This document shows, one piece after another, positions 55,405-55,608 of a DNA stretch of 64,000 nt; position 1 is the first letter of the stretch, and every line of letters begins with the position of its first letter. The DNA is from Altererythrobacter sp. BO-6 (GTDB lineage Bacteria; Pseudomonadota; Alphaproteobacteria; Sphingomonadales; Sphingomonadaceae). The DNA is taken from the NCBI RefSeq assembly GCF_011047315.1, contig NZ_CP049259.1, positions 744,001-808,000 of the forward strand, in the 5' to 3' direction. The notes beneath the pieces were generated by a model. The model was not told the origin of the DNA, searched no databases, and worked only from the letters and a program-made list of their open reading frames with translations. A program made the position numbers and the translations under genes.

Positions 55405-55425
55405 GCTTTCTACCCCTCTGATAAG

Positions 55426-55434
55426 TTATCCACA
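55426..55434 (+). promoter_or_regulatory. perfect DnaA box in ccrM leader
   Basis: TTATCCACA is an exact match to the high-affinity DnaA box. It lies 22-30 bases upstream of the ccrM ATG, next to the first GANTC pair. A single 9-mer could be chance, but the position in a promoter already rich in cell-cycle signals makes DnaA control plausible. Confidence 0.55.
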
Positions 55435-55438
55435 GGGT

Positions 55439-55591
55439 GAGTCCTCGCGGACTCCGGGTCAAGCACAAAGCGATAGGCGGTTATGGTTAACGGCGCGTTA
55501 GCTGTCACGGAACAAAAAGAGTCCCGCACAAGATATTGAGTCTCGGCCCTTTCCGGGGACTCGATATCGTGGGGTGTTGCACCGGGGACTC
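55439..55591. promoter_or_regulatory. cluster of six GANTC sites upstream of ccrM
   Basis: Six GANTC sites occur at 55439-55443, 55450-55454, 55519-55523, 55538-55542, 55558-55562 and 55587-55591, all GAGTC or GACTC. The first two form the arms of an inverted repeat (GAGTCC/GGACTC with a 4-nt loop), and GAGTCCC/GGGACTC pairs at 55519-55525 and 55556-55562. The 10-mer CCGGGGACTC is repeated at 55553-55562 and 55582-55591. The methylation state of these sites would report whether the region has been replicated, giving possible autoregulation of ccrM. Confidence 0.8.
55487..55501. promoter_or_regulatory. CtrA-like binding box upstream of ccrM
   Basis: TTAA at 55487-55490 and TTAG at 55498-55501 are separated by exactly seven bases, matching seven of eight positions of the CtrA consensus TTAA-N7-TTAA. 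In Caulobacter crescentus ccrM is a CtrA target, so location and spacing are as expected. DNase footprinting or ChIP would confirm. Confidence 0.7.
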
Positions 55592-55608
55592 AACCGCGGC
55601 GCGAAATT

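Follow-up and report, generated by a model that had tools for sequence, protein, structure and literature searches.

The timing of CcrM has a central role in the cell cycle of Alphaproteobacteria. NrdR is the known repressor of ribonucleotide reductase (RNR) genes. In Caulobacter, the ccrM promoter is activated by CtrA and is sensitive to methylation. Caulobacter start sites with a GANTC between the −35 and −10 elements are activated at 40–60 min of the cycle (PMC4287350). The core targets of GcrA are predicted to include ccrM in many orders, a link lost in part of the Caulobacterales (PMC7987155). Control of ccrM by DnaA has been predicted as well, mainly where CtrA sites are missing (PMC2877005). 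NrdR with ATP plus dATP binds pairs of boxes separated by spacers of 14–17 bp (PMC12051234).

We analysed a stretch of 64,000 nucleotides, referred to as the window, with emphasis on the 204-bp region 55405..55608. The region separates ccrM from a calcium/sodium antiporter gene, and the two genes are on the − strand (Table 1). The ccrM product contains PF01555 and PF18755, the methyltransferase plus RAMA architecture that characterizes CcrM. Its top NCBIfam match was NF050803, a CcrM model named for Caulobacter; the score of 597 bits falls short of the curated cut-off, 830. The gene name ccrM, with GANTC methylation by the product presumed, rests on homology. The same genome encodes NrdR (TIGR00244, 173 bits, above cut-off), GcrA (PF07750, 83 bits) and DnaA.

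The region resembles the Caulobacter ccrM promoter in serving the same gene and in having methylation sites near the promoter, but it differs in having a DnaA box and an NrdR-type box pair and no conserved TTAA-N7-TTAA. Similar to the GcrA/CcrM-controlled sigma70 promoters of Alphaproteobacteria, it has a GANTC between −35 and −10, GcrA is present, and ccrM is itself a predicted core GcrA target (PMC7987155). Unlike those promoters, it has two GANTC sites in or at the spacer, a partial match to YGAKTCK and the added NrdR-type pair. With the NrdR operators of RNR genes it shares the box sequence, a spacing of about three helical turns and an NrdR gene in the genome. It departs from them in that the downstream gene encodes a DNA methyltransferase and not an RNR (the usual place, although not a required one), the pair is placed farther upstream than the core promoter, GANTC sits on the inner box edges, and the site is a predicted one.

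Table 1. Positions of genes and candidate regulatory sites at the ccrM locus (window coordinates)
Feature	Position	Strand	Remark
ccrM-like DNA adenine methyltransferase gene	54256..55404	-	382 aa, N6_N4_Mtase + RAMA
DnaA box, TGTGGATAA in ccrM sense	55426..55434	-	exact 9-mer
Candidate −10 hexamer CACCCT	55434..55439	-	17 bp after TTGACC; weak match, inferred by reading the sequence
GANTC G1	55439..55443		adjoins candidate −10; conserved
GANTC G2	55450..55454		within −35/−10 spacer
TTGACC, candidate −35	55457..55462	-	TTGAC in 98% of aligned rows
TTAACCAT	55483..55490	-	overlaps TTAA-N7-TTAG
TTAA-N7-TTAG	55487..55501	+	from the initial annotation; not conserved
Conserved GTTC	55510..55513	-	from the alignment
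GANTC G3	55519..55523		less conserved
NrdR-type box B	55526..55541		16 bp; 14-bp core 55527-55540, 0 mismatches to CNCWANATNTWGNG
GANTC G4	55538..55542		inner edge of box B
GANTC G5	55558..55562		inner edge of box A
NrdR-type box A, 33-bp register	55559..55574		2 mismatches
GANTC G6	55587..55591		upstream end of module, before conserved CACACC-like stretch
Calcium/sodium antiporter gene	55609..56535	-	between rnhB and ccrM
rnhB (ribonuclease HII)	56532..57191	-	near ccrM on its upstream side in many other genomes

GANTC sites upstream of ccrM

We confirmed that the GANTC cluster is real and conserved. As the initial annotation had reported, six GANTC sites lie within 153 bp upstream of ccrM (G1–G6, Table 1), the ccrM coding sequence (54256-55404) contains none, and 55592-56535 holds a single one, at 56520. 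The cluster exceeds chance, as had also been claimed, but the expectation at the rate of the window is ~0.17 sites per 153 bp and not the 0.6 given previously. We observed 74 GANTC in the window (1-64000) compared to a mean of 262 in dinucleotide shuffles, a >3-fold depletion. Because the window is poor in GANTC, six sites in 153 bp are rarer than first estimated (Poisson P ~3e-8 at one given place). Across the 464 kb examined (the 64-kb window and a 400-kb genome sample of twenty 20-kb stretches), a second place had six GANTC in 153 bp. This run, at G000:C1:1813361 (L315, from 13361), lies between two divergent genes. One belongs to the aldehyde dehydrogenase family and looks by eye like proA; the other is peptidase-like, by eye of type M23.

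The initial annotation had proposed comparing GANTC density upstream of ccrM in related genomes, and this comparison bore out the cluster. We used 110 ccrM loci of the family, which gave 105 distinct upstreams, own included (one was too short and four duplicates were dropped); the ccrM start codons in L040, L078 and L104 are possibly misassigned. The median was six GANTC per upstream (range 2–10). The 250 bp upstream of ccrM contained 627 GANTC in 26 kb (23.9/kb) compared to 555 in the remaining 472 kb of these loci (1.18/kb), making the ccrM upstreams ~20-fold denser. In the alignment of the upstreams, G6, G4 and G5 were best kept, followed by G1, with G3 and G2 less kept.

Core promoter, DnaA box and CtrA candidates

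The predicted ccrM core promoter consists of TTGAC with two GANTC sites, placing GANTC between −35 and −10 as in GcrA-type promoters, with a −10 that is weak and inferred by eye. A sigma-70 scan of the region gave no site. We looked for TTGAC followed by two GANTC in three sets of ccrM upstreams: the family upstreams, an order set (19 genomes, out of 22 from the same order that gave a match) and a class set (60 of the 96 other matching genomes, mostly better-scoring, of which L174 belongs to the window's own family). The arrangement was present in 78/105 own-family upstreams, 14/19 other genomes of the order and 25/60 genomes of the class, and on the antisense strand of the upstreams it occurred 0 times in all three sets. 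It was not found in the 400-kb sample of the own genome. With a slightly stricter form, the whole genome gave two sites, ccrM and ftsK, and at the latter (G000:C1:1577676-1577699, L149) it stands directly ahead of the ftsK DNA translocase gene. G1 reads TGAGTCC and matches 6/7 positions of the extended YGAKTCK; PMC7987155 reports no extended GANTC preference for Brevundimonas.

The DnaA box of the initial annotation is exact, reading TTATCCACA on the + strand at 55426-55434. It is identical to TTATNCACA, which we take to be the DnaA box consensus. We found the exact 9-mer in 73/105 ccrM upstreams and nowhere in the other 472 kb of these loci. In the Sphingomonas loci L083, L086, L094, L095, L098 and L102, an exact DnaA box has the CACACC arm of the upstream module on one side and the GACTC arm on the other, lying within the module and away from the ccrM start codon.

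A CtrA-like box, TTAA-N7-TTAG, had also been described. It is present, with 7/8 consensus positions, but its columns in the 105-upstream alignment are mostly unconserved, and we rejected the box as drawn. The overlapping TTAACCAT, presumably a second CtrA motif, was found in 45/105 ccrM upstreams and once elsewhere in the same loci (472 kb). Two further conserved elements, the GTTC at 55510-55513 and a GAGTC...CCACACC-like stretch (55573-55591), resemble no motif that we recognised.

Overall, the cell-cycle promoter proposed initially keeps its conserved GANTC cluster, its DnaA box and a GcrA-type promoter, but loses the CtrA box in the form drawn. The six GANTC had all been taken as promoter sites. 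This holds for G1 and G2, which are at the core promoter, but G4, G5 and G6 belong to an upstream NrdR-type module. The NrdR-type box pair in this module, a main feature of the region, was missing from the earlier inventory of sites.

An NrdR-type box pair upstream of ccrM

The resemblance to NrdR sites was first seen in the aligned upstreams, where G5 and G4 flank CACTAGATGTTGAGTC- and GACTCAACATCTTGTG-like sequences. Both ccrM boxes resemble acaCwAtATaTwGtgt, which we assume to be the NrdR box consensus. Box B is the top single NrdR-type site of the window. Box A of the own genome can also be read in a 31-bp register, with 3 mismatches and a matrix score about equal to that of the 33-bp register. 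A distance of 31–33 bp centre to centre leaves 15–17 bp between the 16-bp boxes, which is an NrdR spacing. A strict 14-base single-box pattern occurred at 6 places in the 3.04-Mb genome (box B included) and at 4 for the reversed control. This single-box count is by itself unremarkable; it is the pair that stands out. Within the window, the ccrM upstream was the only place with a pair of ≤4 mismatches at 31–33 bp.

We observed the same pair across the family. For pairs with ≤3 mismatches, the commonest centre-to-centre distance was 33 bp, seen in 58/105 ccrM upstreams. Each other spacing from 16 to 59 bp was seen in at most 4 loci, and a coding control reached at most 3 loci, at 28 bp. With ≤4 mismatches at 31–33 bp, pairs were present in 83/105 upstreams compared to 0/1323 control pieces from the same loci, the 105 loci being non-independent because they are homologous.

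To score the pair, we built a matrix from RNR promoters. For training we picked, among the matches listed, 40 promoter regions that belong to other genomes in the class. Pairs with ≤3 mismatches at 31–33 bp were present in 8/20 nrdA-type and 9/20 nrdJ-type promoters and in none of ten shuffles. The matrix, made from 34 boxes of these promoters, has the consensus ACACTATATATAGTGT. It scored the ccrM pair at 22.4, the best of the 464 kb, with the next place at 14.0; the next scores inside the window, 9.6 and 9.4, were shifted copies of the ccrM pair. The locus-best matrix pair fell within 330 bp upstream of ccrM in 102/105 loci. The matrix is partly circular, because its RNR training sites were chosen with the NrdR box consensus assumed above; the spacing peak and the shuffle controls are independent of that consensus.

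At nrdA of the same genus, the pair was poor. A first RNR set had a pair of ≤3 mismatches at 31–33 bp in 7 of all 31 loci, and the nrdA promoters of the same genus had one in 1/15 sequences. The own nrdA stretch was not among the 15 best matrix pairs of the 464 kb. Because the nrdA pairs of the genus are poor, the gene class after which NrdR is named has a less clear operator than ccrM. Many same-genus nrdA promoters (L126-L141) have TTGAC, GANTC sites, a conserved CATCTAGTGGTTCGG-like stretch and a weak second NrdR-like box.

The pair extended beyond the family. In the order set, 14/19 genomes had a pair with ≤4 mismatches (0 in 20 shuffles), and in the class set 15/60 did (shuffles mean 0.3, max 2). 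At ≤3 mismatches the counts were 3/19 and 4/60 (0 in shuffles). The pair was thus absent from 45/60 class genomes at ≤4 mismatches and from 56/60 at ≤3. A perfect single box was present in 7/60 class genomes (shuffles mean 0.05, max 1), and a single box with ≤1 mismatch in 24/60 (shuffles mean 2.35, max 7).

In the order set, the pair lies mostly within rnhB, close upstream of ccrM. Its boxes read GCA GGA TAT GGT and GCA CTA nnn CTT GTG GG and are 32 bp apart. We recognised rnhB in 17/19 order, 39/60 class and 67/110 family loci. The codons at the box places were nearly invariant in the order (GGA 17/17, TAT 17/17, GGT 15/17, CTA 17/17) compared to the rnhB genes of Sphingomonadaceae, where the pair lies elsewhere (GGA 6/67, TAT 44/67, GGT 5/67, CTA 1/67). 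From the codon usage in the rest of the same genes, the four codons together are expected in ~1 genome in 2200, an estimate limited by the relatedness of the genomes and by our having chosen the codons after seeing them. The string GCAGGATATGG was found in 16/19 order, 4/60 class and 0/110 family loci. The unusual rnhB codons at the box places point to a constraint at the DNA level inside coding sequence. Where the antiporter gene stands between rnhB and ccrM, as in the window, the box pair remains with ccrM.

We also assessed GANTC on the inner box edges. In the family, 65/83 pairs had GANTC on both edges, 17 on one and 1 on none. The corresponding numbers were 1/15, 7 and 7 for the class pairs and 0/14, 1 and 13 for the order pairs. 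Because GANTC on both edges is seldom seen in the order and class pairs, it is a trait of the window's own family; contact at one edge recurs in the class (7/15 pairs). Among loci with both features, box B and TTGAC were a median of 72 bp apart in the family, 104 bp in the order and 45 bp in the class.

A probable composite promoter and its alternatives

Our data suggest that the region is probably a composite ccrM promoter, with a GcrA/methylation-type core, a DnaA box and an NrdR-type operator, that couples ccrM to dATP. The sites, their spacing and their conservation were observed directly, as was the presence of the NrdR, GcrA and DnaA genes.

One alternative is that the cell-cycle circuit of GcrA/CcrM, DnaA and CtrA acts alone, and that the box-like pair arises secondarily from GANTC and neighbouring conserved DNA. 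The conserved promoter GANTC pair and DnaA box agree with this, as do the published predictions of ccrM control by GcrA (PMC7987155) and DnaA (PMC2877005) and the GANTC found on at least one edge in 8/15 class pairs. However, the pair has the NrdR spacing and agrees with a matrix derived from RNR promoters, the consensus of which contains no GANTC, and the inner edges carry no GANTC in 13/14 order pairs and 7/15 class pairs. We regard this alternative as unlikely. Binding of the pair by another palindrome-binding regulator with a similar motif appears quite unlikely to us. NrdR binding at ccrM is predicted from likeness of sequence, and the pair at the genus's own nrdA is weak, which leaves room for such a regulator; yet the centre-to-centre distance of 31–33 bp is that of NrdR box pairs, common to RNR promoters of the class, and an NrdR gene is present in the genome.

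The inverted repeat might instead act as RNA, either as a leader hairpin or as the terminator of the upstream gene. The sense RNA (55505-55600, − strand) did fold better than shuffles (z -2.58; 3/200 as good). But the repeat lies upstream of the predicted core promoter, there was no Rfam match, the terminator scan gave one site, on the other strand, and none on the sense strand, and the boxes are inside rnhB in other families of the order. With a modest fold signal and no Rfam match, we rejected the RNA hairpin as highly improbable. That the GANTC cluster is incidental has a next to negligible chance of being correct: one further 153-bp span of the 464 kb holds as many sites, but the ccrM cluster is kept in position and number across 105 upstreams, at ~20-fold the GANTC density of the rest of the loci. 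A LexA-type direct repeat was weighed by eye only and was set aside.

In the composite promoter that we favour, TTGAC with two GANTC in the spacer or at its edge would form the core, a layout tied to GcrA-sigma70 and to methylation timing. Because the DnaA box covers the expected start, its position suggests that DnaA may block ccrM transcription. The NrdR-type pair would act from ~72 bp upstream of the −35. At high dATP, an NrdR tetramer carrying ATP and dATP would occupy the two boxes there and keep ccrM repressed; as replication draws dNTPs down, NrdR would release ccrM. We infer NrdR binding, the direction of regulation and an effect of methylation at ccrM. Because GANTC lies on the inner edges of both boxes, the ccrM product may modify its own operator, and ccrM could then be switched in a methylation-dependent manner. 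The weakest point of the repression proposal is that the pair is upstream of, and not over, the core promoter; because of this position, repression would need DNA bending, contacts with other factors or an unseen promoter.

A broader proposal is speculative, and we hold it to be possible but doubtful. The NrdR regulon of many Alphaproteobacteria might include ccrM, and the CcrM of Sphingomonadaceae might methylate the edges of its own NrdR operator, forming one switch that reads both dATP and replication-dependent methylation and so times genome methylation. The NrdR-type operator at ccrM appears to be new in the literature searched; the GcrA-type and DnaA parts had been predicted before. This search, which covered article listings and main-text passages of some of them, found no NrdR-ccrM link. 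In Acinetobacter, a DNA adenine methyltransferase is reported to affect NrdR filaments (Weber 2022, as cited in PMC12176259); this concerns another enzyme and another class.

A direct link between NrdR and ccrM, if true, would tie the epigenetic clock to the supply of nucleotides. Such a link is open to test in laboratory strains, and a Caulobacter NA1000 nrdR deletion exists (PMC12186491). In a Caulobacter ccrM deletion, nrdA expression falls, and nrdA is among the genes with a conserved promoter GANTC (PMC3973325). If true, the NrdR-ccrM link would fit this drop in nrdA without CcrM, and the two together would make a two-way loop.
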